The position numbers were made by a program, and so were the translations under genes. Source: Trebouxia sp. TZW2008 (Eukaryota > Chlorophyta > Trebouxiophyceae > Trebouxiales > Trebouxiaceae). From it: DNA of 64,000 nucleotides. Below, in pieces: positions 8,999 to 63,752 of this stretch (position 1 is its first letter; every line of letters starts with the position of its first letter). Location: positions 124,001 to 188,000 of the forward strand of contig BDIU01000112.1 in the NCBI GenBank assembly GCA_002118135.1, in the 5' to 3' direction. Under the pieces are notes generated by a model that did no database searches, was not told the DNA's origin, and worked only from the letters and a program-made list of their open reading frames with translations.

Positions 8999-11900
8999 AT
9001 GGGTGTTTCGATTGTTGCGGTGCGCGATGACGCTTTTAGCCTCTGCACCTTTCCGAACGCCAGCCAAGCTTGCACGTTGACTGAACACGGCTTGATCGAT
9101 GCGTGTAGGATTTGACCGCCGGAACCTTTGCAGGCGCTGCTTCATTAGTCGTTGGTCATCCCTTCGATACGATCAAGGCAAGTCACACAAGAGAGCAGCC
9201 TGACAGTCTGCTATTAAAAGGACTGCTAACACGGGAGCAATGCCAGCGTTCACATCATGTACTAGGTCAACTTATGCGTGCCACGCAGGTCAAGTTGCAG
9301 AGCCAGCCAAAGCCACTCCCTGGTCAGCTGCCTCAGTATGCTGGAGCAGTTGATGCTGTCAGAAAGGTGAGGGCCTTTCCAGTGTGCCATGTAATTTCAG
9401 ACCACTGCCAGGTAACTCCCAGACAACGCTTTGGACGTATTCAGCTGATGCATGCAGACCATTGCTGAGGGCGGAGCACAGAGTCTGTTCAGAGGCATGG
9501 GAGCTCCATTTGCTACAGTGGCAGTCTACAATGCAATACTGTTTGCTGCAAGAGGCCAGATGGAAAGCATGCTGGCACATGCTGATGGTAAATATCTGCA
9601 TGACTATGCAAAAACCCACACCCATAAGCTTGTGTATGTCTCCACATGACTATGTGCTGTGCCAAGCGCTTGGCAACCCTGTCAACTGCCACATTGATGT
9701 ATATGCTTACAAAGATTGTTAACAAAACATCTGTGTACCAAGGATCATGAACACAAGCTCAGAGATTGCCTTTCATGGCACCGAAAAAGTACATCTTTGA
9801 GCAGACCGTTTTGTCATGTTCATTGTGGGTCACCACCAGCTTGTCAACAACATCTGTACTTTGACCAGTCAGCTTCTCGCATTCAGGAGTATCAGAGTGG
9901 CTTGCCAGTGCAGCAATTGTACCTTGCTGCATACGCATGCTTAGAACCAGACAATGTGTTGCAGGGAGCCCACTGAGTGTGGGGGACCAGTTCATAGCTG
10001 GGTTGGGGGCTGGCGCTGCAGGAGCCCTCATTGCCTGCCCCACAGAGCTCATCAAGTGCCGCCTGCAGGTATAAGTGCAGACAATCATGAAAATGTTGTT
10101 GTAGCAAGTTTTTTGGAGTCATAATTGAGAGTTATGAGGCTCACAAAAGTGATTAAATGCTGCCTGGAACCATACTGCCTATGCACATGATTTCCCCTTG
10201 CACACAGCTGAGACAGCCACATTTAAATACCTCGGCTGTACACTTCATTGCTGCTCGTCACCAGCAGCATAAGACACCCACCTGAAAGCAACTGCCTTCG
10301 CACAGTGCTTGCAACAAGCAGCACGGCCCAGCCAAGTTGTGTGTTCATGTCAACCTGCTCAAAGCTAAAGGGCTTCAGGCTGTTCCAGCTCAGTTTAGCA
10401 CACTCAAGCTGTTACTGTCATGTTGCTGAATGTCTTAACGTTGCAGCTTTTGTCGAGTCATACCACTTGTCTTGTGCTCAGCTCAGAAAACTTGTGTTCA
10501 GCAAGTGGTGCCTGCAGGCTCAGGCTAGTACCAGAGGTTTACCGGCGCAGCCCCAGGGCAGGTTGCTTCCCAATGGCTTAGCAAGCCTAGGCTCGTCTGG
10601 GCAGGGCCTGGCTACCTTGACACAGACCAGGGCGTTTTCTCAGGGCATTGCCACAATGCCCTCAGCGGTTGCCACATCTGGCACCACACCTGGCGCCCTG
10701 CACCTGGGTGAACTGACAGTCAGTGCCTCTGTTGCTGTTACATACCTGTGTTTTCCACAAGAGTTGTCTCCTTGGAGAAAGGTGTTTATTGTCCTTTGTT
10801 TGCCCAAAAGTTTCCGTGACGTTGGGCTTGTCCTGCGGAAGGAACAAGTTGAAAGGTTCAGATCTGCCATTCTCTGTGTACATCATCCTCAGACTATCTA
10901 CAGCAATGTCAGCATGACTTGGCTTCCGCGGCGACATCTTTGGTTTGCTGACGTCCAGCTTAGAGCACTTTGCAAAAACAAGGCCTGAGCTTTGACAAAA
11001 AAACTGTATGCACATACATCTGATGTGAAGCAAACAGTGGCGTGACAAGTCAACAATCATGTGACACTTGACCTTCGTTTGCCTACACAGGGCAGCTTGA
11101 GATACAAGGGTCCTCTTGATGTAGTGAGGCAGGTGACAAGGGCAGAGGGGGGCGTCCTGGGGCTGTACAAGGGGTTGGTGCCCACCCTGCTGAGGGAGGT
11201 GCCGGGCTGTGGTGCCATGTTCGCTGCCTATGAGGCCATTAGACTTGCAGCTGTGCAGCAGCAGGTTGGAACTGCTGTTCATCGTGTGATTTCTGCCGAC
11301 AAACAACTGCACTTGCATGCGACCTTTGAGTCGCAATCAAATGCACTCCTTATTGTACCAAAACAGCCGATGGTATTGCAGCAAGGTCATCAGAGCCTTA
11401 CATTCATCACCAAGTAAAGTGCAGCGCAGATATGCTTGAAGAAAGACTTGGCATGCAGGTGTAGGCCTATGTTTACAGTTCCTGACTGCATATGTTGTCC
11501 AGTGCCAGCGTCATGTACAGAACTGTACAGCAACGTGGCAAGACCAAGTGGCTGGACATGCAGCAGCTCCGCTTACTCGCACTTGTGGAACATGGTCATC
11601 ACAAGACTTTGCTATGTCACCACCCTATGCAAGATGTCGTGTTGTTGGTCTGTACTTTTATGTCATCTGCACACAAGCAGAAAGCCACAGCCTGTTATCT
11701 TTTGGGCAAGAGGGTCTGTGCCACACACAATGCAAGCAAGCACAGCACGTGTCAGTGCCACTGCCAGGGCTTGAAGAGCACAAGTGAGCTGGGCAAGGGA
11801 ACCCTGTTGGCTGCTGTGCTTTCAGATCTCTGTACTTGTGCAAAAAGAGAAGTGTGTGTTGTGAAATTGCCAGGGCTTGAAAAGCACAAGTGAGCTGGGC

Positions 11901-12692
11901 AAGGGGAGCCTGATGGCTGCTGGGGGTGCGGCTGGGGCGGTCTACTGGCTGGTTGTGTACCCAGCAGACATTGTGAAGAGTAAGCTTCAGGTGGACAGCT
12001 TCCACAAGCCTGCCTACAAAGGAACCTTGGACTGCGCACGACAGGTGAAGGATCGGCAGCTTTCTGTCACAATCATGACCAATGGTCTGCATACTTTTCA
12101 GCACATGTGCTAGCTGTGCATGACACTAGTCTTGGCACTGTATGTTGTAGACAGGACTCCTAGCTGCCTCACATACCTTAGCTCATTCCTGTGTCACCTG
12201 CCCTGCTACATTGTGCTGTTGATATTTACCTTGCAAGGGGAATAAGCTGACAGTGTGGTACCACCTCAAGTGTCAAGGCTGCACATTCACTTCTGATGCA
12301 CAATGGCATGCAAGGCTTTGTCAGGTGATGACAGCATGGCTTATCTGGGTTGATGACCCAGTCCGAGTCACACCTGTGTGTGGCTGGGAGCTCACCACCA
12401 TCAAGTCTTCAAATGTCTTGACGCACTCTTGTCTGGGCACATCATTGACATGGCTGCTACTGGCTTGCAGCCTCTAACAGCAGTTTCGTCTGTGCAATGA
12501 AGTGGTCTTGACATGACTGCTTGATAACTTGCGATCTTTGACGATCAGCAATGTTGTCTGCAGTTGTATGCGGCTGATGGTGTGGCAGCTCTCTTCAGGG
12601 GCTGCTCGCCTGCGCTTGCGAGAAGTGTACCAGCAAATGCTGCAGCGTTTCTGGTGTATGAAATGGTCAGGCAGGCAATGACTACACAGTAG
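8999..12692 (+). CDS. BOU: Mitochondrial carrier, BOU / carnitine-acylcarnitine carrier (SLC25A20)-like
   Basis: Nine exons (8999-9019, 9109-9177, 9289-9366, 9458-9587, 9965-10068, 10518-10718, 11091-11264, 11874-12044, 12564-12692) give about 358 residues in one frame. The first mitochondrial-carrier signature reads GHPFDTIKVKLQSQPKPLPG, the second CPTELIKCRLQ, the third YPADIVKSKLQ. Each is followed by the usual aromatic/Gly block (FRGMGAPF, YKGLVPT, FRGCSPA). The order and wording closely follow plant BOU, an inner-membrane carrier of the acylcarnitine/glutamate transporter group. Substrate cannot be read from sequence. Intron 2 appears to begin with GC (AAG|GCAAGT). Exon 6 carries a Gly/Ser/Thr-rich loop insert between carrier repeats two and three. 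Exon 1 (MGVSIVA) is the weakest part of the model; everything from 9109 onwards is firm. Confidence 0.85.
11768..11816 (+). repeat. Decayed tandem copy of the start of carrier exon 8
   Basis: Bases 11768-11816 repeat the first ~49 bases of exon 8 (11874-11922) with a few differences, and are preceded by the same ccag acceptor context. The copy then runs into unrelated sequence and lacks the rest of the exon. It is probably a splicing decoy or a relic of tandem duplication. Confidence 0.8.
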
Positions 12693-13636: not shown

Positions 13637-16331
13637 TCACGCTGCTGCCTTGGCCTTGGGAGGCGGTCTGTAAACCCCCACAACCATCGCATGATCCCTC
13701 TCATAAGGCTCTAGGGTGACCTGCTCTTTTGGCTTCAACTGCATCTCTGCTAGCTTCTTGACTTCCCTGGCAAAGACTGCCTCTGGCTGTGCTGTGGAGT
13801 CAATGCAACTGGCCTTGATGGAGATCACATAGAACCCACCATTCTTTAGAAAGTACTGTGCATTCAAGCCGACAATACGCGCCTGCAACAATAGGACTCA
13901 AGGTGTCAGCCAGACATTGTACACTCAACATACACTCAATGTACACATGCAGCTACAGACTGCATGCATTCCATCAGTACACCTAGCCTTTGTGTAGTAG
14001 ACAGCAATTGAAACCAGGCTTCAACGACTGCAGCAAATCCGTAGCTACATGTGTGCAGTGCTAGCGCCAGCAAGCGTGTCCAAGCAGCCAAAAGTGGCTC
14101 GAAGTAGAACGCTGGACTTGCACAGGTTCAGCGTCTCAATCACCACATGCCTTGCCAACACATATGCAAGCAATCCAACATAAGGCTAGAAGGCAAAGCT
14201 GGCTTGCACATGTGTGCAGGCCTGCAATTTGCAAGGCATGTCCAAGCAATCAAAAGTAGCTTATACAGTCAAGAGGGTCTGAAAGGAAAGGGAGCTTGCC
14301 TGGTCAGGCTGTACAACATCAGCAAAGCATCAGCAAGCAGTCGAAAAAGGCTTGCAGGGAAAGCAGCTTGCACATGTACAGTCCTTCAACTAGCAAGGCA
14401 TGTGGAAGCAGTGCAGGGTGGCTTGAAGGAAAAGGTGGCTTGCCTGGTCGGGCTGTGCAACATCAGCAAAGACTGCATCTACCATGGGCACCAGCATCCT
14501 GTACTTCTGGGGATGCCGGGCGTCCTCAATGATGGGGATCACATTGGGCCTGTTCTTGGCCATGTTCACCAAGTCTCGACCTGCACGTGCATGACATGAA
14601 CATGATAAGACAAGGCTGAGCCAGATTACTGAACGTGCTAGCATCAAGGGAATGGCTGAGTTCTGTGCTGAGCCAACTCTGCTGTGAACGCAAGCATTTG
14701 GTCATGTGTGCTGCAGGCGTGCAGGAGGTAAACATTGCAGACACTCCTTCTGTACATGTGATCCTGTCCGAGATCAAGAGCGAAATGATGCCAGCTGTGC
14801 AATAGAGTGCCCCTGCTTGATGCAGGAATGCACGAGGACTCTGCCGTCTCAGCGACTTCAGCAGCAGCAAAATTTTGATCTGAAGCGGTTGTTGCTGCTT
14901 GCGCTGAAGCAGCTATATTCGCATCAGACAAGAGATGTTCAGCATACAAGCCAGGCATGTCTAAAATCCAGGCACACATGGGCGCAGGCAGTGACCAACA
15001 CTACCAACAGGACAGCCGAAATACTGTGTCATGCAAAAGAAGCATCCTGCAAGTCAGCCTTGCAACCTAGATAACTTCTTGCTGCTTTACTTTGCAATTG
15101 CCACTGTAGCTGTCTTTGTGGATGGACGTGGGACTCACCGCTCCTATGTGAGAACTCCACAGCAAAGACAGCTCCTGTGGGTCCAACAATATCTGACACG
15201 TGTGACACACTGGTGCCAGAGGCAGCGCCCAGGTACAGCACTTTGCCGCCTGGCTTGATATGTACATTGTCCACTCCAGCCAGAACTGATGCTGCCAGCT
15301 TGGACCTGAAGGGGTTCCACACCCGGTACTCTATCTTCTCCCCTTCCCCTGCCTCTACACTGATCCTCTTCTCATTGTACACACTGCAAACAAGGCATAG
15401 AACGCCTCTGCGCTGATGCTTTTCTCATTGTATCCACTTCTCAGTGTATACACTGCTCATTGTATACACTGCAAACAAGGCACGGAATCAGTGCAAGCCC
15501 CCTGACTCTACGCAATTGGAACACATGACATAGTGGTGTATGTAGCACATCAGCATTGGTGCAAATCACAGCTGGCACATACCAGTGTGCAGTGCAACAC
15601 AGCTGCGCATGTCTGCCATGTCAGGGTCAAGCAGATACTTTGACGTGCAAAAGATGCTACATCAGGCCACAACCTTTGATGCAGGGTCTGTGCAACTTGA
15701 GTGATGTTGCCAGATGATTTGCAAGTGTACCTGACTCCAGGCACAAGGTTCTTGGTGACAAGGGCGTCTTCCTTTCCACGGGCAATGAAGATGCCTTCAT
15801 GTCTGTGCTGCTCAATGACAACATTGCTGCCACCCTTCATACCACCCCGGCCTCCGCGACCACCGCGTCCCCCTCTACCCCCACCTCTGCCTCTGCCACC
15901 CCTGCCACCCTTTTCAACACCTCCACGACCTCCAAAACCACCTCTGCCACCGCCACGTCCTCTGCAACATGAAGGAAATGGGGGGAATGAGCATCACGTG
16001 TATTCAATGCACAGCTCAGACTGTTGCAGTTCAGTACATGAAATACAAAGAGGGTAAAGAGTCTAGTCTGTAGACCATCAGGTCAAATCTGCAACAGGGT
16101 GCAATGCCGTTTATGCGCGCTGCAGATGGTTACTCCCAGATATTTAAGCAACCAATGGTTGCAGACTTGGCTGAGCAGAGCTAATGCAGTGCAGTGTCGA
16201 ACTTGCTTGACAAGCAGGTAGCAAAGGGGCGGTGTTACTGGAGCATACCCTCTGCCACCACGACCTCCTCTGTCACCTCCTCTACCACCGCCTCTGCCTC
16301 CGCGAAAACCGCCACGGTCGCCGAAGGCCAT
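13637..16331 (-). CDS. FBL: Fibrillarin, rRNA 2'-O-methyltransferase
   Basis: Five exons (16331-16249, 15961-15731, 15383-15139, 14580-14444, 13882-13637) encode 313 residues; human fibrillarin has 321. The N-terminal ~85 residues form a glycine/arginine-rich GAR domain that directs nucleolar localisation. The methyltransferase domain follows with the conserved order [23 protein letters not shown], the SAM-binding [56 protein letters not shown] and [15 protein letters not shown]. It is the catalytic subunit of box C/D snoRNPs and also methylates histone H2A in animals and yeast. Intron 4 seems to start with GC (CAG|GCAAGC), fixed by the conserved join of DQ to ARIV. Intron 4 also carries repeated copies of the exon-4 donor region. 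The start ATG opens the GAR domain directly. It is divergent from the PsbS-like gene. Confidence 0.95.
14288..14475 (-). repeat. Tandem copy of the exon-4 donor region inside fibrillarin intron 4
   Basis: Bases ~14294-14328 (gcttgcctggtcaggctgta and onwards) repeat the true exon-4/intron-4 junction at ~14438-14472 with two or three changes. Looser copies of the neighbouring GCTTGCA/AAGGCATGT blocks occur from ~14200. The copy keeps the GC-type donor context. Its role is unknown; it is most simply explained by tandem duplication across the junction. Confidence 0.7.
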
Positions 16332-21839: not shown

Positions 21840-22250
21840 GATCGCGCACAAGGTGTCAACTCCTGGCCTATTGCAAGATCGCAGCCAATGTTGCGACAAT
21901 GAACACTGTTGGGTCATTCGTGTACGCACAGATGCAACTCGAACAACGGAACCCCCTTGGGCCTAGACTCGGGCCCCCCCAGGACTTGTCTGAAAGTTCT
22001 GAGCAACACATATATAATATGTTTACAGCAGTACATTGCTGCACAAGTACAGGCTTGCTGATGCTGACCCATGATGACACTTGTGTCGAGTCGATGATGT
22101 GTCTGGGAGACATGCATTCCTTCGTTCGAATGACATTCTGTTGGATGCTCAGCAGCTCACAAGTGCAAACTCAACTGATGCATCAACGACTTCTGGCACG
22201 CAGATGCTCTCAGCTGTTCAACAAGTTCGAGAGCTAGGTACCCCGTATGT
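21840..22250. other. Divergent region upstream of mtACP (-) and the phosphodiesterase (+)
   Basis: About 410 bases. Plus-strand bases 22081-22238 have a coding-like open frame (for example DAQQLTSANSTDAS) without an in-frame start, and may be part of an upstream phosphodiesterase exon. I could not connect it with confidence. Confidence 0.3.
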
Positions 22251-25200
22251 ACAAGGCAATTCCGAGAGATTGCTCAGTTGACAGGAGAATTTGACATTTC
22301 AAGGCAGGACAAGGCCATCTCACGGGGCAAAATGTATCTGGTGGGCTTGGGTGAGTTCACCAGTGCCCTACCGTCACAAGTTGCATTGCGCTCTTGTCAC
22401 CTGAAACATTGTGGCTACGCTTCTGGTCTTCCTTCATGGCCAGGCCTTGAGCTTTTAGTAAATCATGTGCAAATGTGCTGCATTCAAACTTACAGCAGGG
22501 CAATGTGTACAGGTCAAGCATTGACCGAAGTGTCGACATTGCGCCTGCGATCTTCGGCGCACCGACCGCGGACCATGTCATAGCGGAAGCTGCAAGTTCT
22601 CTGGCAATGTCGGGCTCCTGCCCGCCGCTTGCAAACGCTGCAGCGAGTGTCACATAAAGATGAGTGAGTGCTGAACTACAGATGAGCTGCTTTTGACCGG
22701 CCCAAGCGGCAAAATTGTTGGAACACTTGAACAAGGATGCAAGGTAGGACAGTCGATGCGTCACTCTGCTGCAGCGCTGACAGCCGGACTGTGTGGTCTC
22801 ACAAGTCACTGAATCTAGGTCCTTTCTTCTGGGAAGAAGCTGAGGCTAAGCCAAACAGCAATGCTGCTTATGGCGTATCCCACCAAGACAAAGTGTGGAC
22901 TACGCAAGAGCTGCAGATCTTGCACAGCATGGCAGGAGCGGTCTTGATCTGCAAGCTTGGGCACCAGGAGGACTCTGCTAGGTGACAGCAGGCTGCAGCT
23001 CAGATACAGCTGCATTCAAAGTGCACATTGAATGTGCCTGACAGCATCCTATTGCGTCACAGGCCAGCTGGGGCAACATTCTTCAAGCAGACATACTTTC
23101 AGAACACAGCCTGCCTGAATCTGTTGGGCAAAGCTCGTCCTTTGGAAGACTATGTAGCACTGGTTGACGCCATGCCAGAATGGGAGCGATCAAACCGCAG
23201 AGTTTGGTCTGATGCAATCTCACAGGTTTATAGATATAGATATAGCATCAGTCTCTTGTGGTGCTGATTGCATGTTTCAGATAGCTCACACAGGACATTA
23301 CATGCAGGGACCCAAGGAACTTCGCAGCTGGGTCAAATTTCAGCATTTGACACCTTACTTTCTGTCTGCTCCTGATTCTGCCATCATTGTAACCATTCTC
23401 AGCAAGGTAAATCTCATGGCTGGTGGTTGTTGCTTGTTGCAATCAGTGCTGTCAGCAGCATCGAGTGTTCAGCCAAACCTCATGGCTAGTATGCAATCAA
23501 CTCTTGTTTGGTGCCCTAAAGGTTATCAGAGTCCAGCTGGATTCTGGTGAGATCAAGACGGCCACTCTGCTTCAATTTGAGTCTCAGATGACAACTCAGA
23601 ATGCCCGCATCACCGCCATGCATCAGTACAACCCTATCTACAGATTCATGTGCGATAGGAATGGCGTCATAGTGCATGCAAACAAGCGAGCCTGGGAAGC
23701 TTATAGTGATGGTACGCTTCAAGTCCATGTTTTGTCGCTGGCTTTCCTGCATGCTTGTGCCTATTGCTAAGCAACTTTTGCTGTGTTGACCCAGGCAAAG
23801 GATACACACCCACCTTGAAGGATGTCTTCTCGAGGGGCGACTACCCAGGTTAGAACTTGTACTCAGAATAAGCACATTTACCAAGCGAGCTGCATTGGTC
23901 AGGGCATGCTACAATCGCAGCATTCTACAATCATGAATGCTGGAGACCACAGACCACAATCAACAGACCGCTCCCTCTAGCACGTATTTGAACTCACATG
24001 CTATGGCATGAGATGGCACTACGTCTGTGCACTGTGCATACTGTGTCATATAGACCCTGCTGTCGGGTCCTGTACAGCATATCATACTACCCTAAAAGAC
24101 ACCTCATCTTGCAACGCCCGTGTTTCAGCAGAGAACACATTTCATTCAACAGAAACACACCATGCACATGGGTGCTGCATGCAGGTGGCGATGCTGAGCT
24201 GGACGCAGCATATGACACTGCTGTCACTGCTATATTTGAAAAGGGAGTTGCATGTCACCGGCATCTGAAATGCTACACCAGCAGAAAGACTGGCAAGCGA
24301 AAATACATCAACATGGAATTGTGGCCAGTTGCTGACCCACTGGATGGCAAGTTGGCTGTGATGGTCAGTGAGTACAACATGACTGAGCAGAAGGAGCTAG
24401 AGCTGCAGCTGTCAGCCCAGCATCAGTCGCTGCAAAGGCAAGGTTGATGATGTATTCTTTTGCATGATCACAATTGCAACCCAGTATCACAGCAATGCTG
24501 ACCATCATACTAGCTGCCACCACACAAACAGCATAGCACACAGGTGCATACCACACAGACAGCATGCAAGCCTTCAGAGTATGTTGTCCCTGCAATGAAC
24601 AGAATTTGCAAAGGCCGTGTATGACTTCCCCAACAATTTAGATGAATCCGCACATCAGTTCAGCGCTTGAGCCCAAGTAAGCCAAGGCCTCTGCACCTGC
24701 TGAGGTTGTGTGCTCATCAAATGCAAAAGCTGTCAATGCTGCCTAATTTGCACAGTGAGGCTGCAAATCAGGCAGTTTTAAAGGTGCTCTGATCAGCACA
24801 AGTCACCTGACACAGCCACGACTGCTGCACAGGCAGAATGCTGAGCTTGAGACGCTTAACGCTGACATCCAGACAGAGAAGAAGCAGCTGCAGCAGCGCA
24901 ACACCCACCTGACAGAGCGCTTGGAGGCGGTAGCGCAGTCGCCCACTCCTGGGCAGGGCATCAATGCTGACACTCCTCTGGACCTCATGCTTGGTCTTCT
25001 GCAGAAGCTTGTCATGGTGTGTTTGCCACCAATCTGATCTGCAAAAGGCTGCATGCTGCATGCGTGCTCAAATCGCTGCAGAAGGCTGTCATGGTGGGGT
25101 TGCCACCATTGAGATATGCTGCTTGCTGCATGGGTATACTACACTAAATGTGCCTAGCTGTGATTTTTGTAAGGGTCCATGGGTTTTGGTCTATTGCGTC

Positions 25201-28200
25201 TGTGATGCATTTGCATCATAATGAGCAGAACACCCAGTTGTTGAATAATTAGCATGTAAGGCAGCACAAATCATGTGTTTGTTGCATCTGGAAATTATTT
25301 TGCAATGTCATGCGCGCAAGTCACAGCTTGTACATAATTCACATTGAACCTCGTCAGCAGGTAACCATCTCAAGCATAAGTTGCACAACGCCACTTGCTC
25401 TGTCAGCTTTGCTCAGCTGTTCCTGCTGCATGGTGGACCAAGAGTGCTGACGTTGCTTCTTGGAGATCATCTGCTTTCGCTCAAGGAGTGATGGCTTGTG
25501 CCTGCTCTGCAGGGGGAGACTGTAGGCATGGCTCAGATCCTGGACTTGCGGCATATACTAACAGAGTCCACGACTGACCTCAGACAGCCAATTGCCCTGG
25601 AAAGGCAGCTCCTGGAGAGCAGCCACTCCACTGACGACGAAGTGGGCCTGTCCATGCTGCAGCTGCTCAAGGTGCGCTTGTCTTCTGCTTCAAGTCTGTG
25701 GTGTGACTGTACTCAAACATGCTACAGCTGCTTAGGCTGTGCTTAGGCTGTGAGTCTGGTCCTCCAAGTCTGTTGTGTGACTGATCCTTGCATTGGAGGC
25801 ACCAAGTACGGCCACTTCCCAACCAAGCGGTGTCTGGCAAGGTTATGTTGAATGCTGTTTTTGTTTGTTGACAGCTTGCAACATCCTGCCAGCAGACACA
25901 GCAGTTTACTCAAGACATTGAGCTTCTGTCACCAGCAGCAATTGAAGCCGCTGTGTAGCTTTGTGGCATGTTTGCTGCAGCACGCTTTGCAACTGCCTGA
26001 TAGAATGCCGTTGAGCGTCAGGCTTTGGAGGCTTGTAGTCACGCACAACACGACTGTCAGTCCAACAGCATATGTTGACTCTGACACGGTCTGTCATGCA
26101 TTGGAAAACGGTAGAGTGAAGGGCAATGGTTCCACATGGCATCAAACTGCAGCCCATTCATTGTAGCATGCGACGCGATGTCTTGTGCGACATTGCAGGG
26201 CAGGTCACCAAGCCAAGCCAAGCACAGCAAACCCGCCAGCCCTGCAGCACAGGGGCAAAAGCCCCATGCCTTGCCTGGCTTGAGCACTATGTACAGGCCC
26301 CAGGTCAGCTCTGAGGACAGTTTCAGAGATGCGCAGTGTCACCTGCAGGCAGCCGTGACGTCTGCAGAGGGCAACTCCAGACCCTTCCTGCAGCTTACTG
26401 ACTGCTTCCCATCACAACGTCAAGCCAGCCTGATCCTTGCATGACACTGCAGGGGAGGTCACCAAGCCAAGCCAAGCACAGTGATCCCGCCAGTCCTGCA
26501 GCGGAGGGGCAAAGGCACCATTCCTTGCCTGGCAGCTTGTACAGGGCCCGGGTCAGCACTGAAGACAGAGCCAGGGATGTGCAGTGCGAGCTGCAAGCCG
26601 CCATCACTCCTGCTGTAGAGCGCATGCTGCAGGTCAGCTGACTGACACAGTGACTTCCCTTTGTAAGGACACTTAGTGTAAGGACACTTGTTGTAAGGAC
26701 ACTCGTTGTAAGGACATTCTTGATGTAAGGAAGACACAATTGGAAACCAGTCACTGCATTACGACTGAAATGGTAGCCCTGAGTAAGGATAATTTGATGT
26801 AAGAACTATTTTCTTGGGAACCAAAGCGGTCGTTATACAGAGAGGTCACTAGTACAGTTGTGACCACCCAGTGAATGGCTTGCCATGTGTTCGATCTTGA
26901 ATTACAGCTAGGAGGGTCCTTGCCAGGACTGGCTGCTGTTTACGCAGCAACATCTTTTCGTAAGTTATTTGCATGAAGCCCTGACTTTGCATGCATACAA
27001 CCGGTTTTGGCGTCACAGGGTCACTTTGTCCCTGTTTCCGTGCTCACTCTGGTCCCAGCCACGGTCTCCATCTTTCTTCAGCATGAGTGAACCCATATGC
27101 AGATGCCAGAAAGCGTTTTTGCATCCTCTCTTGATTATCACATGTATGTCATAACTACAACCGCTGATGCATAGCTTTGCACAACCATCTTGCTGAAGCT
27201 CACGATGTGTGCTTATGTGCTCAGGATGCGACCAAGCAGTGGCAGTTTGACATCCTGGGCTTTGCCGAGGCAACACCCGGCCACACATTGTCCATTATGG
27301 GCTTCTTCATACTCAGCAGCCAAGGCTTCATCAGCGAGTTCAACATCGATGAAGCCAAGCTGTGCCTGTACCTGCGCAGAATAGAGCAGGGTTACAATAA
27401 TTTGGTTCCATACCACAACTGGTATGGCACACCATAGACACAAGCGCATGCACTGTGACAAGGCATTTTTTAGCATGCTGTATGCTGCCTGCACTGCGTC
27501 ATTGCTACGACAAATCTGAATCACACCATGGCATGTTATTGATCACGATTTGGGACAACAGGCCTCACATCACTAAGCCTTCAGCACATGTCTGCGTACT
27601 TCTCTGCTCTGTTAATTGCACCTGCAGATGTCAACTTTGCCAAAACACCCTGAGAGGTTGTGCACACAATTCTGATCTTGTGTGCGTTGCTCAAAGAGCT
27701 CATTCATTGAATGTTTACCGTCTCAGTCGATCTGCCAGCCCATCAACCACACAGTCAGTCAGTCAGTCTGTCTACCAATGGCGTGGGGCTTCTTGCTCAC
27801 CGCTGTGATGTGATCATGAGTGACAAAGTGATTGTTTGATGCTCCTGCAGCACACATGTGGCATCTGTCCTCCAGATGACTCACATGCTCATGGTGCATG
27901 GCGGTGTGATGAAGAGGCAAGGGGCAGACCGGCTCAGCCTGCTGGCCTCCTACATAGCAGCCTTGATTCATGACTTTGAGCACTCAGGGGTCAACAATGA
28001 CTTCCTGATCAAGACCAATCATGACTTGGCCATCACGTACAACCTGCAGTCGCCTTTGGAGAATCACCACCTAGCAGCCTCTACAAGAGTCTTTCTGCAG
28101 CAGCGCTACAACTTCCTTGGGGTATGGGCTTGCCTCGAACAACAGCCGTTCTTGCTCAGCTGGCAACCAAACACATACATGCTGCACACGTCTAGGTCAC

Positions 28201-30361: not shown

Positions 30362-31339
30362 CAGCCCACACTTGTCATGAGTCCAAGCTGCCCGCTGCAT
30401 AGGTGTTGGTTCTGTACAGTGCAGGTGTGAGATTTTGTGGCAAGTGTGTCAGGCAGTGTGTTTGGTGTCTGTCAGGCTCAGAGTGCTAAGGTCATTATCA
30501 TCATATTTTCCTCCAGAAGTGTTGGCTATACAGCCTTATCAGAGTATGTGGAAGTAGTCAATTTCTGCAACCTGTGCACAGCGCTTAGGTACTCTTGCTT
30601 GTTTGTTCTAGTCGTCTTTTCTGTTGATGTGTGTGCCATGAGCACATAGTCCGCTTTTGTTACTTGGCATAATATACTGAAAGGACCAAGCGTTTTCAGT
30701 GTGAACACATCAGCCATATCATACAATATACACCAGTCCTAAGTAGTCGTAGTAGTCAGTAGCACATGTATTGTCAAGCCTTCCCTGCAGATCATGGATC
30801 AACGTGCACGTGCGCATCAGCTTAGGATTCTTACGAAAAGATACTTCAGTACTATTACGGTGTTGACTACAATGGTTTGGCTTTTTTGAAGTGCTTGCTG
30901 GCATGCTGAGGTGTCTGCAGCTGATCAGTGCTGTTTGAATTGCTTTTGGCCTGCTGCTTTATGATATGTGGGAACAGCCAAACACAATGCCCTCACAACA
31001 TGATACAGTCACACAGCTTCATAGCCTAGGCAGCTGAATGCTGTGTAAATGTTGACTCAAGCTTTTGCATATCCTCGTTCTGCAGAGCTGTTCCCCAGCA
31101 GGCAAAGATGTGTTTTGAAGGGATTAAACCGTAGCGCTTTGTGCTTGGCATTCAATGTCCAGGCACTGCACAAGACTGAGCTGGCTGCAGAAGCATACAT
31201 ATGACATGCCATCAATATTATCAATCATTAATTTTATACTAACACATGAACGATCACACTGTATCTTAACATACGATGACAAATCGTTGAAATATCATCA
31301 TTAGCAAAGACAGCAAACACGAGTTCGAATCCACACACC
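30362..31339. other. Intergenic spacer after the phosphodiesterase gene
   Basis: 978 bases with relatively AT-rich sequence from ~31190. No gene or RNA with support. A GTTCGAATC match to a pol III B-box occurs at ~31322, just before the retroelement remnant, but no tRNA fold surrounds it. Confidence 0.4.
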
Positions 31340-47724: not shown

Positions 47725-50700
47725 ATGAGCTTGCTAGCTCAGCGTCCTTCGAAAGCGGCCTTGCAAGCAATAACATCCCAGGCACGGGCAAACTACCAAG
47801 AACGAGTTGTTGACTTTCAGCAGCTGCTCGAGCACTCATTACAGGTACGTTTCTCTAGGCATCAAGCCATCAAGATGGATTCGGCACCAGAGTACGACGC
47901 GCACCAACTGTTGATGCTGCTGACTGCAGCAGCGAACGGACATAGACAAACACCTTCTACGCCTTTGGGTGATCAGTAGCGCTTCCAAGCTTGAGCACGT
48001 CGACGCCACCAGGGTCTGGCGAAGGCTAGCTCACTTTCTGCCGAGCTCTGCCCGCAACGAAGAGCAGTACAAGCCTTTCTGCCTGCAGCTCCTGCACCTC
48101 GTCAGCCAGGCCCAGCCTGCTGAGGTATGCATCTACTTGCACAGTTGCACCTGGCTCAAGCAGTTTTTGCTCATCTATGGAGCGTGCTGCAGGTAGGATG
48201 GCTGTTTTCTAGGCATCCCAGGATCATCCGCCACTTGTTTGCAGGTAGGACGGCCAGCTTGTCTGTCTAACTGTCCATTCATGACTACAATCCAAACACA
48301 ATGCCATGCTTGCATGTAAAGCAGAGGACAAGTGCATCACATGCTCGTGCGCATTTCACCGCAATAAGTGTACAATTTTGACAAATTACAATGCACACTT
48401 GGCTCAATGTTAGGCTCAGTGTGATGGCGCATCATCTGTTGCATAGCATGTGTCGCAGGTCTACACACCTATGTTGCTGACTTGCGTCGAGCGAGCTATT
48501 TGCACACAAATGGTTTGTCGATATCCCGTGACGCAAATCGCGTTCAATCTATGCCTCAGCAAATGAGTTGAGTCGAATTGAGTAGATCTGAAGCTGTCTG
48601 CAGTCGAGGGTGTTCTGAGCTGCTGCGCTGTTGGCCAGGCTGTTGCTTTCACTTGCGAGTGATAACGCACAAGCAATAAATCCCAAGTGTCAAAGTGCAG
48701 TAAACCTGAAAAAGGCATTAATTACACCTGGTTTGCTATGCGGCATGTGATGCTGCAGACCACCCTCAGCACATTACTACCTGGTTTCAGTGCTCGTATG
48801 TGGGCAACATCTCAGAGTTCAGGCATGGTGCCAGAGCCCTTGCCCAATATTCGCTGCTGCACAGAGCAGAGGTAAGCTTGCTGCATGCGATCACATCATT
48901 TGCATGGCAGCTGCACAGCTTTGGTCACGGAGCAATCTACCGACTAGAGTGAGCACTTGATTGGTGTATCAAACATGTCTGGCAGTTTGCTGTCAGAATG
49001 AGCACACATTGCAAAAAGGCCACACACTGCCTTATGATACAGTCCGTCAATCTGTCAGCCCAATGCGTATAAGAGCATCTTGTTTGCATGTATAGTCCAT
49101 GTGCAAGCATGGCTATGGTATAGCTGCAGGCTCAACCAGTCAGACCAGCATGCTTGCATATCAAGCAGCAAGACAAGCAACCACATGGGGGTTCATCAGA
49201 ACCACCAGCGCAAACACCAAAGGCGGTGCATTTGCAGCATCCCCATCATACCAGGTGTTGCAAAACAACACTCATATTTGTGCACCTCATCGCCAGGATG
49301 TTAAAAGCGTTGAGTCTGGTGCAGATGTGGGACTTGTTGGTGTGGCAAGGCAAGCACCCTCAGCCACCAGTTGCCATGGCGGCCAAGCACTTCAAATATT
49401 TGACTACCTTTGTTTGAACATGCAGCACTTCAAATTTTTGACTATCTTTGTTTGGACATGCAGATGTGGGACTTGCTGGCGTGGCAAGGCAAGCATCTTC
49501 AGGCGCCGTTTACAGTAGCAGCCAAGCACTTCAAATATTTGAATATATTTGTCTGGATGTGTAGATGTGGGACTTGCTGGTGTGGCAAGGCAAGCACCCT
49601 CAGGCACCAGTTGCAGTGGCAGCCAAGCCTTACTACTTCAGCGAACTCAATATCAAGCGCACGATGCGCAACATCCTGAAGCACCACCCGCAGTTCTTTG
49701 CCTCACAGCACATGCTGGACACAGTGCGCAATGGTGACATCATTGCTCTTGACACCAACTTCTTCTGTGAGGTATGCCAGCAATGCATGTCACATCCTGA
49801 AGCACCACCTGCACTTGATCCCTTAGGGCACATGCTGGACACAGTGCGCAGCAGTGACATCATTGCCCTTGACGCCAACTTCTTCTGTGAGGTATGGCAA
49901 CAATGCATGTCACATCCTGAAGCACCACCTGCACTTGATCCCTTAGGGCACATGCTGGACACAGTGCGCAGCAGTGACATCATTGCCCTTGACGCCAACT
50001 TCTTCTGTCAGGTATGGCAACAATGCATGTCACCTCCTGAAGCGCCACCCGCAGGTTTTTGCCTCTGAGCACATGCTGGACACAGTGCGCAGCGGTGACA
50101 TCATTGCTCTTGATGCCAACTTCTTCTGTGAGGTATGGCAACCGCATGTGCATGTCACAAGCTGGCTTTGCGAGACAGCTGTAACAAACTCTAAGCAATG
50201 AGCGCAATAGAGCTGAGAGCGTTCCGCAATGGTGGTATGTAGATCACACAAGAGCGTCTGCTGTTATCTAGGATGGAGTGAGAGGCAGCTCAGAGCTCAC
50301 CCTGTAACACTCAACCGAGTCAGACTCAACTGCAGAGCCTTCTGATCTGTGACTCAGCTACTAAGCATACTCATTCTGATGAGCAGTACTCAGTCTGTTA
50401 CACCAGCTGTCATGCTTTTAACAGCAACAGCAACTGGTACGTGTGCAGGAGCTGTATCAGGTGACGAACCTTCTGGTCAGCTACAATCTCAATATAAACA
50501 CTTCATGTTGTGCACAAGGACCTGCTCTACAGAGACGCTCACAACAAGCCTGCATGGTGAGACTGGACTTGGGCCACACACACACGCAGCACATGTGCTG
50601 CAACGGGTAGTGATTGTTATTATCACAAGGACCTGCCCTGTGCAAGTACACTTCTCAGAGATACTCGACAGTTGCAGACAATGCAGCACGCATACAACTC

Positions 50701-57400: not shown

Positions 57401-60400
57401 AGAAAGTAGAGGAAAGTACCGGATGGGTGGCAGCAAAAAGAGGCAATTACCTCTTTTTGACGTCAACTGCAGGAGTGGACAAGAGAAGCCCAGCGCCTAT
57501 CAGAAGGATGACCTGTGGGTGTTGTCTTCACAGCCCTGTTGCCAGCTAGTAGCAGGGTCTCAGGCTGCAATGGGGCAGGGCTGGTTGCTGATAGCTTGCA
57601 GCTCCTGGCATGGCCCCAACAAAGATGGCAGGTGAAGTGATCCACTGGCAACGGTTGAATGATGTTTGTCCAACACAGGGGCTGTGCTTTGGCATGTTGG
57701 GCATGTTGGGCGTTTTGCAATCAGTAATGAGATGTTTTTCTTATATGGTCACATGATATAGGGAGATCCTTGATGCATAAACAATGCAATTGAGAACCAA
57801 TCATTTCACTTCAACTGCAGTGGTACCTTGAGTAGATACACTTCAGTACAGGAAGAATGTTGTTGATGCCCAAAGCAGTTGTCACAAGCAGCAGTTACTA
57901 CAGTGTAATCATTCACCAGCCCAGATGCGGTCGCACAGCCCAAGTGTGTCCTGGGAACAACCTCATGGACATATAGTCATTGACGCTATGTGGCACACTT
58001 GATCAGCCTTGGGCGCTGGCTAAAGCATTCAAACGTTACTCTCCCTCTCTTTGGGATGATGCTACCTTGTCAATAAAGTGCAAGCTGTGCGTGCTAGCTG
58101 CGTGCGGACAGGGTCAACGCCTTGGGCCCATGTCTTCACTGCAAACAGACTGTCACAGACGTTCCTGCTCCTGCAAGGTCAAACCAAACCCACATAATCA
58201 GCTCAGTTACAGACATTGTGCTCTTCCTGTGAGGGCAATGAGCACAACAACAGTGTGTCCGACATGAGCTGTGCCATGCCTGCAGGATGCAGATTCAGCT
58301 GCTGTCAGATTGCATCCCCAAGCTGCACAGGAAGCAAAGCATCTACGCCATTCATGGCCCAAATGCTGCAACTGAGCTAGCCATGCTGGCTACACTGCAA
58401 GGCTTGGATGCTGCCAGCCTACCTGCCTTGCCTGCTCTAATGTCCTGCAAGCAATCTCCTGCTGCACTCAAGCACTGCAAGCAGGCTGCTGACACCAGAA
58501 GCCATGCTGAAGTTATGGATGTAACATCAGGTAAACATGGCCAGCTACACATTGTGGGCATTCACATGTGATGCAGTCATCTGCAAAAGCAGGATGGGTT
58601 GCAGCATCTTGCAAAGCATTGTGTGTCGCAATTGAGAGCAGCAGCAGAGCGGCTGACGTTTAAGTGTGCAATATAAAGTTGCATTTGCTCATATGCTGCA
58701 AGATCCAATAATCAATCTTAAGGCTGCTCTTGATGAAGCGTATTGACGCAATAAATACTTGAGCGATCTTACCTGAAACTAAAGAAAGGTATTTATGCAT
58801 TTTGCGAGCATGTTGTGGCACACTGAGATCCTTCTCAATAGCGTCAGAATGCATCATACAACGCAAATGTAGCACATGCCATGCTCAGCTAGTAGCATAC
58901 AGGTCTAATGACACAATGCAATGCTGCAGGCAATGTGAAATGTGAAGCAGAGCCAATGGAGGAGCATGCTAAGGCTGTGGCTGCAGAGTTCAAGCTGAAC
59001 TGTGATCAGATGTCAGTCTTGGCACACTGCAGCCGCTGGGCTGCATCAGACAAGGTAATAATAATAATAATGATAAGTACATGCTCCAGCATATGCTGCT
59101 AGGTATGTGTGGCACAAGTCCTATCTCGCCAGGCAGGCTTGTCTTGAGCGTCGCGATATGGACGCCTGATGTTCAACTGTTGAAAGTCAGACACAACAAT
59201 GTCATTACAGATCTTTCTTGGGCGACCTGGAGGATTTAGGATTTCAGACAAGGTCAGCAGCTCTCAATTGCCATACACTGGATGCTGTACATGCATCTGC
59301 TTCCTCTCACATGTCATCCCCTTTGTCGTCAGGCTGCAGCCATCCTCTAGCATCATGGTTCAGTAGCGGTGGCACACCTTTGGAAGGCCTCAACAAGAAT
59401 AGCACAGAATGCTGCCTTCAGCAATCAGTCCATGGTCTTGGATTGTGATTGCATGGCACAAGCATATTCAGCAAAGTGTGTCCCTCTGCATGCAACTTTA
59501 GAGCACAACGTTATAGAGCAGTGTCTCTCTGCGTGCAGTTGCAAGACACAATGTTGCACAGCAATGTCCCTCTCTGCATGCAATTGCAGGGCTCAAGATT
59601 ACACAGCAAAATTTTTCTCTGTGCATGCAAACGCAGGGCACTGGTCCAGTGTGCATCATTCATGGGCCATTTTGGTGCGGCAAGTCCAGCCTGTTGGTGG
59701 CAGTCGTGCATTGCCTGCTATTGCAGTGCAGCCAACACGGTCCAGTACTGTCACAGCTTGTCAGCCACTATGTGTGCTTGCAGGGCACCAGCCCAGTGTG
59801 CATCATTCATGGGCCATTTAGATGTGGCAGGTCCAGCCTACTGGTGGCATTCATTCATTACCTGCTCAAGCAGCGCAACCAGCAGGACCTGATACTGTCA
59901 CATATTGTCAGGCAATATGTGTGCTTGCAGGGCACAAGCCCAGTGTGCATCATTCATGGGCCGTTTGGATGTGGCAAGTCCAGCCTGCTGATGGCAGTCA
60001 TACACTACCTGCTGAAGCAGCGCAACCAGCAGGGCAGTGCCCTGAAGGGCTGTAGAGTGCTGCTGTCAGCCCACACCAATGTTGCTGTGGACCGCCTCAT
60101 GACTGGCCTGATGGAAAGTGGCTGCACTGGTGGGTTGCGTTTTGATGTCATTGCTGCGATTGTAAGATTGAAGAGACGTCAGCTCCACACTGGCTGCATG
60201 CAGGGCATGCCTCCTACTCCATTCTAAGCTGTGACTGCCAAGTGTCATGCCCTGATGTATGTTGTGCTGGGCTGCACATCAGACATTGCTTCAGGCTGCT
60301 GTTGAAGGTTACTGCATGAACAGCCTGCTAGATACTGGCTGCAACACGGCCACAGTCAAAGGGGTGCTGTGAGTCCAAGACACGTTGCTGTGGACTGCCT

Positions 60401-63290
60401 CATGACCGGCCTGATGGAAACCGGCTGCACAGGTGGCATGCCTTCCTCCATTGCAAGCACCATGCACAATTCAATGTTGTGCTAGGCTGCACAATAGACG
60501 TTATTTGAGGCTGCTGTGAAGGTTGCTGCATGAACAGCTTGCTAGATACTTCCTGCAACATTGGCACAGTCAAAGGGCTGCTGTGAGTCCACGACAATGT
60601 TGCTGTGAATCGCCTTATGACTGGCCTGATGGAGACTGGCTGCACAGGTGGCCTGCCTTGCGCTCAAAGTTGAGCTGTGATTGCAAGCATCATGCCCTGA
60701 TGTATGTTGTGCTGGGCTACATAATAGACATGGTTTGTGGACTGCTCTTGAAGACCGACGCATCAATGACCTGCTAGATACTGGTTTGGCTGCAAGAGTG
60801 CCATGTTATGTATAAGCATGTTCTGTTTTGATGCAGGATGGCACAAATGTACCGATGCCGCAGTACAGTTGCATGCTGCTGCTGGGACTGTTCAGCGCTG
60901 ATTGAGCAACTTCAGTTCAATGTGTGGTGCAGACATGGTGAGTGCAGTGTCTTCGGGCACATCACCAAGAGCTTGCTAGCTGCAACTTTACACATGAAGT
61001 GTATGCGTCAATTTCATCAAGCAGCAGTCTCAGTGTGATATGTGGTGCAGACATGGTGAGGGTGGGTGCCTTGGGGCACATCACCAAGAGCTTGCCAGCT
61101 GCAACTTTACACATGAAGTGTATGCATCAATTTGATCAAGCAGCAGTCTCAGTGTGATGTGTGGTACAGACATGGTGAGAGAGGATGCCTTGAGGCGCAT
61201 CAGCAAAGACTTGCTGGCTGTAAACTCAACCATAAGACTGATACACCCCATCAATGCAGCAATGTGATGTCTAAGTGTGATGTGTGGTGCAGACATGGTG
61301 AGGGTAGGTGCCTTGAGGCGCATCAGCAAGGACTTGCTGCCCCACTCATTACATGCTGTTGACTCCAAGGCCAAGAATGATGCTGCAAGCGAGCTGAAAG
61401 ACATGCTGGCTGCCACCAACAATGCTGCTGAAGCTGCTGTCATTCAGAGAGAGCTAGACCAGCTGAAGCAGGTGGCATAAGTGTAATGAGTGATGTAGTA
61501 TCATGACGCATACAATGGTCTGATACATAATGCATGTGCTCTGTTCAGCAAAGTCGAGAGCAGTCTGCTTTTGAAGTTGTGAGCCTCCACTTGTGTTGCC
61601 ATTGAGTGTGTTTTGCTTGTCATATGTGGTAGTGCACTGCCTCATGCACAATCTACAAAGCCTCTGGAAAACAAGCACGCACCTTTGACAAGAACATGTC
61701 AATGACCCAAGGATGTGCAATACAGGGCGCCGTGACAATGAGTTTGGATCAACTGTCTAGCATCACCGCCATTTTGACACTTCATGCAGCGTCAGCAACA
61801 GAGTGAAACTAGCAGAAACCCTTGTGAGCAAAGCCCTGATTCCTGACATCATGTTGCGTAGGGCGCAGATCGGCAGCGCAAGAAGAAGCTGAAGAGCGCA
61901 GGCGTGGTGGGGGTGACGTGCTGCTCAGCGGGGCTACCAGTGCTGGAGGGCCTTGTTTTCGATGTGGTGCTGCTGGATGAGGCTAGCCAGATGGTGGAGC
62001 CTCTCACCCTTAACCCTCTCACCACTGCCAAACCCAGGTCATCCGTCTTCCGTGGCACTAAACGCCTTCAGTGCTGCTAAGCCCAGAAGTGCTTGACGTA
62101 CTCACTGCTGCCAGCTCAAGGGCACATTTGTGCCTTGATCCTTAGGCCTGCAACTCCCTCAATCGCTGCCAAAGCTGAGTCAGGGTCTTGCCTTAGCCTC
62201 AGCAACTCATCATTGTCACTGCTGCCATAACTTTTGGCCCAAAAGCATGTTTCTTGTATTCTGCCCAAGTGCTTGCTACCAGGCAGTCCCATCACCTTCG
62301 AAATTGTGTATGCTGGCAGGTTCATCATCATGGCAGGAGATCCTTGCCAGCTGGGACCTGTGGTTGCCTCACCAGCAGCAGTCGCCGCCAACCCACCAGC
62401 TGCTACAGCAAGTGCTAGAGCTCCTGCCCACAGCCCCATGCCACCCACTTGGGCTGCTGCAAGGGGGCCTGCTGAGAGGCCATTACCACAGGGGTTGGCT
62501 AGGCCCCTGCTGGTGAGGCTGGTGCAGATGGGTCACCATGCTCACTTGCTGCGCACACAATACAGGTAAGCAAAACAGTTGTTTATGTTCCTCTATTTAT
62601 GTTCCTCATAGCCGGTGGTGGTGAGCAGGCAGATTACGGTCCAATGTTTTGTGGATTGTTTGCTGCACTTTGACTGAGTCTTGAGCAATAGAAATATGCG
62701 GTTTGTCTGTCCGCGCAAGTCTATGTTGACTGCAAAGCTTAGAAGATGTCAGCATGCCACCACCAGCTTATTTCACACGACAAGCTTGTCTGCATTCATG
62801 CCTGCGCCAGCTCTTGCCAGACCATGCATAACCTGCATCAAGGAAATGCTGATTCTTCATGCATTGGTCTGTGTTTATTCAGCTTGATGGCATGCAAACA
62901 GCTATGCAGCTTAAGGTGCCACACTGTCTACTGACTGCTGCAACTCACTTTTCAAGCTTGCACAGCCAGAATGTGATCTGAGCTCAACATGGCATCAGTA
63001 TAAGCAAAATGACACAAGACAGAGCAAACGTTATCAACACAAGCAGCTCAAGATAAGCACAGAAACAGCCTCTTGGTTTGGTATGATGCAGGTGCCACCC
63101 AGCAATCAGTAGGGTGCCCAATGCACTGTTCTATAGGGGCCAGCTGCTAGACGGCTGCTCTGCAGCACAGCGGCCTGCTGTGGTGCCTGGCCTTGCAGCA
63201 GTGAGTTTCATGGAGGTCAGAGGGCAGCAGCGGTATGGGCAGGGCAGCAGCAGCGCCTGCAACCAAGCAGAGGCTCAAGCCGTTGTACAG
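54445..63290 (+). CDS. ZGRF1: ZGRF1-like superfamily 1 DNA helicase with N-terminal DUF2439 (3' end not reached)
   Basis: Thirteen exons: 54445-55093, 55175-55233, 55313-56079, 56237-56300, 56568-56836, 57473-57631, 58286-58530, 58930-59054, 59931-60129, 61293-61471, 61862-62037, 62320-62565, 63092-63290; 1112 codons in frame. Residues ~5-75 match DUF2439 (LYSKQVTRKRKAWQDGF, AKLYDESG). A long Ser/Gln-rich region contains DDILNALLGS. Next come SRKILYYSRCELVVYQ, then YQKDDLWVLSS and WLLIACSSWHGP. Helicase motifs: Walker A GPFGCGKSS, SAHTNVAVDRLMTGL, RVGALRRISKDLL, VVGVTCCSAG, Walker B VVLLDEASQMVEP, MAGDPCQLGP, HLLRTQYRCHPAIS. ZGRF1 unwinds recombination intermediates. The GRF zinc fingers and motifs V-VI are not seen; the latter should lie beyond 63290. 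Several exons have tandem copies. Confidence 0.8.
57755..57925. mobile_element. MITE-like dispersed element, copy 2
   Basis: Relative of 26700-26875: CTTGATGCATAAACAATGCA, then ATTGAGAACCAATCA, CTTCAACTGCAGTGGTACCT, TTGAGTAGATA, GCCCAAAGCAGTTGTCACA and ACTACAGTG in the same order. It lies in an intron of the ZGRF1-like gene. Noncoding; element type uncertain. Confidence 0.4.
59484..59640 (+). repeat. Four ~50-bp repeats just upstream of the helicase Walker A exon
   Basis: Units of TCTCTGTGCATGCAA(T/A)..GCAG followed by CACA..TT.(T)A(C/G)A.AGCA begin near 59486, 59528, 59574 and 59616. Each contains a potential acceptor (GTGCAG, TTGCAG, ACGCAG). They may be relics of repeated duplication of the acceptor zone. 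Confidence 0.7.
59637..60060 (+). repeat. Walker A exon triplicated in frame (147-bp period)
   Basis: Copies start at 59637, 59784 and 59931, each preceded by a GCAG acceptor and each beginning GG(C)AC. The first 110 or so bases are strongly conserved. P-loops read GPFWCGKSS, GPFRCGRSS and GPFGCGKSS. The frame is open across all three (49 codons each) and continues into the true exon. Only the third has all residues expected of a working P-loop. Confidence 0.95.
60378..60652 (+). repeat. Two intronic copies of the helicase motif Ia exon segment
   Basis: The exon segment at ~60073-60132 (GTTGCTGTGGACCGCCTCAT and following, to the donor) recurs at ~60388-60442 and ~60604-60655 with substitutions and stop codons. 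The surrounding ~200 bases (ATGAACAGC(C/T)TGCTAGATAC, CACAGTCAAAGGG) are also repeated. They look like decayed tandem copies. Confidence 0.85.
60925..61340 (+). repeat. Four tandem copies of the acceptor end of ZGRF1 exon 10
   Basis: TGTGGTGCAG|ACATGGTGAG-type junctions precede exon starts at 60933, 61051, 61170 and 61293 (periods 118, 119 and 123). Each copy continues with GCC/TCTT...GGC(A/G)CATCA.CAA..(A/G)CTTGCT. Only the fourth leads into the full exon (to 61471). Confidence 0.92.
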
Positions 63291-63752
63291 GCATGTCTAT
63301 CTTGTCTTGCAGTCAAGTGCCTACTTTGAGATCAAAGTGTCTTGAAAGGCTCTGCTAACAGCAGTTGAGCAGCAGCGGCATGAGCAGGGCAGCAGCAGCG
63401 CTTGCAATCAGGCTGAGGCCCAAGCTGTTGTACAGGCACGCACCAAGCGCCAGAGTCCAGCTAACCTGTTTTTCAATATGCAAGTCCTGCTGACTCTTAG
63501 TGCCAAATTGAAAAGCTGTTGTTACAACGTGTCAAAAGCCGCGCTTTGGGCTGAGCAGCATCAGCGCTTGCAATCAGGCTGAGACCCAAGCTGTTGTTGG
63601 CCCAGGCATACACCAAAGTTCCAACATCTAGTTGATCTGTTGCATTGGCACTGCAATTCCTCTTGACTTGCAATGCTTTATCAAAAAAGCTTTTGATAAC
63701 AAGTAAGCAGCAGCGCTTCCAACCATGCTGAGGCTCAAGCTGTGGTGCAGTC
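63241..63752 (+). repeat. Four tandem copies of the donor end of ZGRF1 exon 13
   Basis: GCAGCAGCGC(C/T)TGCAA.CA.GC.GAGGCTCAAGC.GTTGTACAG-like blocks end at about 63290, 63435, 63598 and 63750. The first two keep TACAG|GC, the third and fourth have changed boundaries. Intervening sequence is noncoding. Confidence 0.88.

Follow-up and report, generated by a model that had tools for sequence, protein, structure and literature searches.

Probable worn duplicates of exon edges in the introns of the green alga Trebouxia sp. TZW2008

Gao and Lynch are said to have found in 2009 that internal gene duplications are common across eukaryotes and can carry splice sites. In the potato RdRp gene, an intron was gained by tandem duplication across an intron-exon boundary (PMC4974935). 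The Rogers model starts from an AGGT exon duplication (PMC3443670, PMC2891723), and new introns of Daphnia carry direct repeats from staggered breaks, for which a passive lengthening of introns was proposed (PMC4202315). Here, duplications at exon-intron junctions are described for a stretch of 64,000 nucleotides of the green alga Trebouxia sp. TZW2008 (the window; bases 124001-188000 of contig BDIU01000112.1) and for further stretches of the same assembly. Self-alignment and reading of the window revealed 14 arrays of near direct repeats, 11 of which lie on splice junctions of five genes. Introns of this alga often carry worn duplicates of the adjoining exon edges, which probably arose by local direct duplication and persist as dead leftovers that lengthen the introns. 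A first-pass annotation of the window had claimed tandemly duplicated junctions at about a dozen sites in at least seven genes, with two to four copies each, at donors and acceptors alike, and had suggested a genome-wide process. The duplication is real, and the copy number (between two and four), the involvement of both junction types and the occurrence beyond the window were all recovered; the number of genes was not, since at the cut-off used five were found and the BAP31-like and lunapark-like genes were not reached.

As in the potato gene, the duplicated block consists of an intron end and an exon start, the splice signals are copied, and the duplication is local and direct. In potato the duplicated block gave rise to a new intron with a segment of exon, whereas in the alga it appears to be absorbed by the old intron, and this occurs at many junctions of one genome. 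The Rogers model shares a direct duplication that interacts with splicing and leaves the mRNA unchanged; in contrast, the blocks of the alga span existing junctions, and no convincing new intron was found. Direct repeats within introns and a proposed lengthening are common to Daphnia and the alga, but the repeats shared with exons measure 4-12 bases in Daphnia, compared to blocks of about 30 to several hundred bases, exon sequence included, in the alga. To the internal duplications of Gao and Lynch, the alga adds the directional placement in introns, the decay by site class and the missing young copies. Junction-crossing duplication (potato) and repeat-driven lengthening of young introns (Daphnia) are known; what looks unusual is the density in one genome, no other eukaryotic genome having been compared, and the quantitative readout of copy fate. 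Titles and abstract starts in the open-access literature, outside which most subscription papers lie, held no report of the phenomenon for Trebouxia, and the word "tandem" is absent from the main texts of two Trebouxia genome papers (PMC12712428, PMC11126685).

The assembly comprises 68.5 Mb in 527 contigs. Two published Trebouxia genomes measure 69.1 and 63.7 Mb with a GC content of 49.7 and 50.3% (PMC12712428); the window has 50.1%. Site classes were analyzed in 244 kb, consisting of the window and nine places on nine contigs (180 kb; one place on the window's own contig), and directions in 264 kb, which include 20 kb more of the window's contig, duplicates being removed. Near direct repeats were detected by self-alignment with an offset of 20 to 1500 bases and a score of at least 44 bits, low-complexity pairs being discarded; for counts in well-flanked introns, offsets above 600 were discarded as well. 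Randomised controls followed a first-order Markov rule per 500 bases.

Self-alignment of the 264 kb gave 87 arrays made up of 191 direct pairs, compared to 2 arrays with 6 inverted pairs. The 244 kb contained 185 near direct pairs and the randomised sequence none (the inverted count of 13.5 in this pass is a rough figure from overlapping chunks). The best-pair identity over the 87 arrays had a median of 81% and a maximum of 94.9%, with a copy-to-copy distance of mostly 70-250 bases. Two units, the 147-base unit of the ZGRF1-like gene and the 120-base unit of a gene at 47.9-51.8 kb, were searched across the 68.5 Mb assembly and matched locally only. Among 126 spacers compared with the 264 kb, no shared element was found, the matches elsewhere being one CTG-type repeat and one dispersed repeat. 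By gene model, 45 of the 87 arrays qualify as internal gene duplications spanning a splice junction; the two units searched are not copies of a dispersed element, and in the spacers and two units compared, the similar intron sequences across many genes that define introner elements were absent. Scans of the whole genome for kinase and helicase families gave, by eye, at least four neighbouring double matches in the expected direction (contigs 73, 130, 100 and 352) and further ambiguous ones (contigs 44 and 273), too few overall for counting. Arrays are present in all ten sampled stretches on nine contigs, and their density differs sixfold between places, from 0.10 to 0.60 per kb (L018-L019 versus L010-L011 and L014-L015).

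Splice junctions were predicted with a simple gene hidden Markov model (HMM), a single ab initio finder trained on the same sequence that it classifies. A first round drifted to GC donors and few intergenic stretches and was replaced by retraining on strong exons only, after which the model still assigns little intergenic DNA (13 of 244 kb). Requiring a crossing of 8 bases, 45 of the 87 arrays cross a predicted junction, compared to 34.9 ± 4.2 at random placement (45 was reached by 3 of 300 placements). The stricter crossing of 15 bases gave 39 arrays versus 32.2 ± 4.0 expected (18 of 300), and in the 244 kb, 43 of 83 arrays were junction-crossing versus 33.6 ± 4.1 (11 of 1000). This excess is moderate, and the directional placement is the stronger signal. 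The extra copy lies in the intron only in 31 arrays (13.3 ± 3.0 expected; reached by none of 300 random placements) and on the exon side only in 4 (9.7 ± 2.8 expected; 6 of 300 as low), with 10 arrays of mixed direction and the same directional trend at five settings. Counted by junction in the 244 kb, 48 of 65 had the predicted orientation and 17 the opposite one, the latter including at least one that was reassigned by homologues (ZGRF1, position 59783). At the donors of well-flanked introns, 19 copies were on the intron side and 0 opposite only.

The decay of the copies is one-sided. At the 48 junctions with predicted orientation, the identity between copies was 0.875 at first, 0.897 at second and 0.797 at third codon positions, 0.798 on the intron side, and 0.920 and 0.844 at the acceptor and donor dinucleotides. 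A drifting copy compared to a fixed base is expected at about 0.90, and two drifting copies at 0.80, if each changed by about 0.10. An identity of about 90% at position 2 versus about 80% at position 3 and in the intron therefore indicates that the exon copy is constrained while the intron copy drifts, and the values near 0.90 at position 2 and the splice dinucleotides indicate that the copies as a group are drifting and not maintained. The 17 opposite junctions had a weaker pattern (0.816, 0.867 and 0.818 at the codon positions, 0.810 in the intron). The abundance, the direct orientation, the intron-side position of the extra copy, the one-sided constraint and the lack of coding constraint on the decoys as a group were all computed.

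The following course probably accounts for these results. Many local direct duplications of DNA blocks would have occurred across the genome, presumably during break repair or replication slippage. A block duplicated inside a coding exon would mostly be lost, because the protein is damaged. A block spanning a junction would survive if the outermost sites, i.e. the last acceptor copy and the first donor copy, stay in use; it would be tolerated because these sites still yield the old mRNA, and the introns would grow. The lengthened intron would then hold a decoy splice site together with some exon sequence, and this copy drifts. In the five window genes, reading placed the copy joined to the exon body last among the acceptor copies and first among the donor copies. 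The homologue check covered the fibrillarin, phosphodiesterase (PDE) and ZGRF1-like genes (the PDE acceptor weakly); beyond the checked genes the outer sites are presumably the spliced ones. The extra copies appear to be absorbed into old introns, with no new introns or isoforms shown.

Several results weigh against this course. All placement and site-class statistics rest on gene models built without RNA. At the acceptors of well-flanked introns the direction is weaker, with 13 copies on the intron side and 7 opposite only. Among 147 well-flanked introns, 24 had a junction copy, 4 a non-crossing exon copy, 4 an opposite copy only and 2 an interior copy only (22, 4, 4 and 2 in the 117 introns outside the window; 24 to 3 for junction versus interior-only under a slightly different rule). 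In a simulation in which tandem duplications were kept only if the mRNA was unchanged, then mutated and re-detected at the same alignment settings, the detections around such introns comprised 616 that crossed a junction, 185 that were trimmed and 531 in the interior, so that the observed junction excess has a P of 2.5e-5 to 1.2e-4 in four variants. None of the 87 arrays is at least 95% identical, compared to 8.9 expected at a steady rate in a uniform-age simulation; either the activity ceased or the assembly collapsed young copies. A spacer of at least 25 bases is present in 27 single-pair arrays. In 12 of them it has flank similarity above the shuffle level, as expected of decayed intron, and in 15 it does not, so that plain head-to-tail duplication explains only part of the cases. 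One 44-base spacer without flank similarity sits between copies that are 95% identical, suggesting that some of the events were break repair with filler. In addition, 33 of 48 decoys (20 of 25 acceptors and 13 of 23 donors) reach the 10th percentile of the scores of real sites, a threshold reached by 12.4% of interior acceptor and 9.8% of interior donor dinucleotides, and an open, in-frame sequence is present in some decoys, namely the ZGRF1 Walker A copies, which are outside the 48, and donor copies 2 and 3 of the gene at 49.7 kb, which the HMM took as exon.

The junction excess over the simulation speaks for a duplication process aimed at splice junctions or at the transcribed edges of exons, perhaps through breaks or R-loops linked to transcription or splicing; a mutational bias and not survival alone would then place the copies. 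This explanation is unlikely but carries the most weight among the alternatives. Over all sequence, 41 arrays had at least one junction of predicted orientation, 10 had one copy mainly in an exon and 30 had neither, whereas the simulation gave 652, 133 and 1661 detections in these classes, which also favors targeting. Against it, the excess over unfiltered random placement is modest, and pairing with a constrained exon slows the loss and blurring of copies, so part of the junction excess may reflect slower loss. A threefold survival advantage of junction copies would make the excess in introns marginal (P of 0.050 with and 0.072 without the window). The simulated mutations were moreover limited to single-base deletions and short insertions.

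Slightly less probable still is a past burst of duplication that was directed to junctions by transcription or splicing and seeded about ten thousand decoy junctions (45 arrays in 264 kb, scaled to 68.5 Mb), with the spliceosome reliably choosing the outermost of near-equal sites by some rule. Since many decoys are still strong, the choice of the outermost site needs explaining in any case. The lengthening of introns and the disregard of strong decoys by the spliceosome are open questions, for which this genome offers natural tests, as real and decoy junctions of varying age are paired within the same intron. Public proteins from several Trebouxia strains and the two genome papers make the origin, loss and use of copies traceable.

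It is improbable that the decoys are functional, either as alternative splice sites or in regulated unproductive splicing. Their splice-site scores and the few open, in-frame copies would fit such a role. The first-pass annotation had noted that copies usually keep AG, GT or GC, which was found for 41 of 48 decoys (42 of 48 in a second mapping), as neutral drift of one copy predicts (about 39). In 24 of 48 cases the copied exon part is broken by a stop or a frame-breaking gap. If the decoys were used, the added stretch would contain a stop in 39 of 48 cases and shift the frame in 36 of 48, only 1 of 48 being open and in frame, and the distance from the real to the decoy site is a multiple of three in 12 of 48, i.e. 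without bias. These counts make productive isoforms unlikely as a rule. Of the two processes proposed at first pass, intron growth agrees with the data, as the extra sequence falls in introns, and a functional multiplication of splice sites is not supported, since 47 of 48 decoys would shift the frame or add a stop if used; the junction enrichment on which the first-pass claim hinged was found in both comparisons, with random placement and with simulation.

Intron creation of the Rogers type, in which a new intron as long as one unit arises between the two copies of a duplicated coding block, is very improbable. In four introns, both ends lie within 12 bases of homologous positions of a pair. 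All four are flanked on at least one side by an exon with a weak coding score (0.5, 0.6, 1.6 and 0.1), one flank being a 9-base HMM exon in fibrillarin, and none has both flanks above 6, the cut-off for well-flanked introns, so these candidates were rejected. Ordinary minisatellites or an assembly artefact unrelated to genes, to which 30 of 87 arrays with neither a predicted junction nor a copy mainly in a strong exon and some short, repetitive units might point, are barely credible and in their plain form already contradicted by the directional placement, the codon-position pattern, the copy divergence of 5-34% and the recurrence in ten stretches on nine contigs.

The junction arrays of the window are listed in Table 1. 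They comprise an acceptor in the carrier gene, a donor and an acceptor each in the fibrillarin gene, the PDE gene and the gene at 47.9-51.8 kb, and two acceptors and two donors in the ZGRF1-like helicase gene. The HMM alone flags 9 of the 14 arrays as junction-crossing; the carrier array, whose exon was missed, and the array at 60056-60784, whose alignment ends short of the modelled boundary, were added by sequence reading, for ZGRF1 also by homologue alignment.

Table 1. Copies at duplicated splice junctions of the window (positions in the window; HMM, hidden Markov model).
Gene	Feature	Position	Strand	Evidence
Carrier	Decoy: intronic copy of acceptor and exon head	11762..11816	+	93% identical to 11868-11922
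Carrier	Real acceptor and head of exon 11871-12046	11868..11922	+	Placed by reading; hand-joined exons match PF00153
Fibrillarin	Tail of exon 14444-14580 with its GC donor (real)	14333..14471	-	Pfam fibrillarin; Trebouxia protein P0001 aligns
Fibrillarin	Intronic decoy donor copy, GC kept	14166..14327	-	70% identical
Fibrillarin	Real acceptor and head of exon 15139-15383	15368..15397	-	Self-alignment, HMM, protein alignment
Fibrillarin	Decoy acceptor, AG kept	15453..15482	-	93% identical; overlaps 16-base tandem repeat 15424-15472 (TRF)
PDE	Tail of the exon ending at 25016 with its donor (real)	24999..25065	+	Trebouxia P0162 aligns 24825-25016, then 25507-25671
PDE	Decoy donor, GT kept	25076..25135	+	75% identical
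PDE	Decoy acceptor and exon head	26189..26365	+	80% identical
PDE	Real acceptor and exon 26453-26632	26443..26613	+	Self-alignment, HMM
47.9-51.8 kb	Acceptor and exon head, two decoys (49319-49388, ~49424-49545)	49319..49545	+	91% and 86% identical to exon-joined copy
47.9-51.8 kb	Acceptor copy joined to long exon (start 49565)	49559..49628	+	Self-alignment, HMM
47.9-51.8 kb	First donor copy of four with exon tail; 49772/49773 read as donor	49671..49791	+	Self-alignment; donor in use not settled, HMM frame open to 50011 (third copy)
47.9-51.8 kb	Three further donor copies, GT in each	49792..50159	+	85-90% identical
ZGRF1-like	Acceptor with head of Walker A exon, two decoys, open frame in each	59633..59926	+	Self-alignment; HMM spliced to middle copy
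ZGRF1-like	Copy joined to exon remainder	59927..60034	+	P0121 alignment
ZGRF1-like	Real exon tail by donor	60056..60141	+	Self-alignment, homologue alignment
ZGRF1-like	Intronic array, exon-tail copies at 60365-60444 and 60574-60659	60189..60784	+	Self-alignment
ZGRF1-like	Three decoys of next acceptor and exon head	60912..61279	+	HMM weak exon in one, 61051-61119
ZGRF1-like	Copy joined to exon 61293-61471 (last of four)	61280..61338	+	P0121 aligns 61292-61477
ZGRF1-like	Tail of exon 63092-63290 with its GC donor (real)	63224..63296	+	HMM; P0121 aligns 63090-63290
ZGRF1-like	Three decoy donor copies	63369..63756	+	Self-alignment

The joined exons are supported by Pfam for the carrier (PF00153), fibrillarin, PDE and AAA helicase, the last (ZGRF1-like) also matching UPF1 chains in PDB. 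BAP31 was below the Pfam cut-off, lunapark had no match, and the gene at 47.9-51.8 kb had one VMAP-M2 match below the cut-off. By eye, the BAP31-like gene has only a short acceptor-side similarity at about 41000-41075, and a lunapark-like tandem repeat (44277-44359) was read as lying inside an intron. Joined without the copies, fibrillarin is 98% identical over its whole length to a protein of Trebouxia sp. C0006. The Myrmecia protein P0121 aligns to 59916-60143 with 95 bits, compared to 44.7 bits for the first Walker A copy, and each of three ZGRF1 homologues has one Walker A segment. The protein closest to the PDE is from Trebouxia sp. C0004 (70%). At 26189-26613, two PDE proteins from Trebouxia are about one segment shorter, and the segment itself is poorly conserved. 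For the PDE gene (22247-30400), the protein database holds many Trebouxia relatives, several per strain name, which suggests an expanded family.

The HMM exons broadly agree with the protein alignments for fibrillarin, PDE and the ZGRF1-like gene. Errors were found in the carrier, with exons missed or misplaced, in ZGRF1, where the acceptor was set on the middle copy and weak extra exons were placed in introns, and in the exon at 49565, which was extended through two donor copies to the third. Strong introns have donors resembling CAG|GTATGC, acceptors resembling TGCAG|G and a median length of 292 bases. GC donors are frequent in the model (23 of 137 introns between strong exons), and one of them, the fibrillarin donor at 14443/14444, was checked against a homologous protein; a literature search on GC-AG introns gave nothing on this alga.

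Three of the 14 window arrays (32045-32339, 37609-38058 and 39267-39471) lie at no recognised junction. The dispersed repeat is common to three places (window 31943-32038, L017:4107-4455 and L015:2850-2904), and the nearby region 31400-32040 of the window looks, by eye, like a degraded coding or retroelement piece. Similar motifs, again by eye, are shared by a non-junction array and the upstream regions of two genes (32045-32339 and about 39830-39990).

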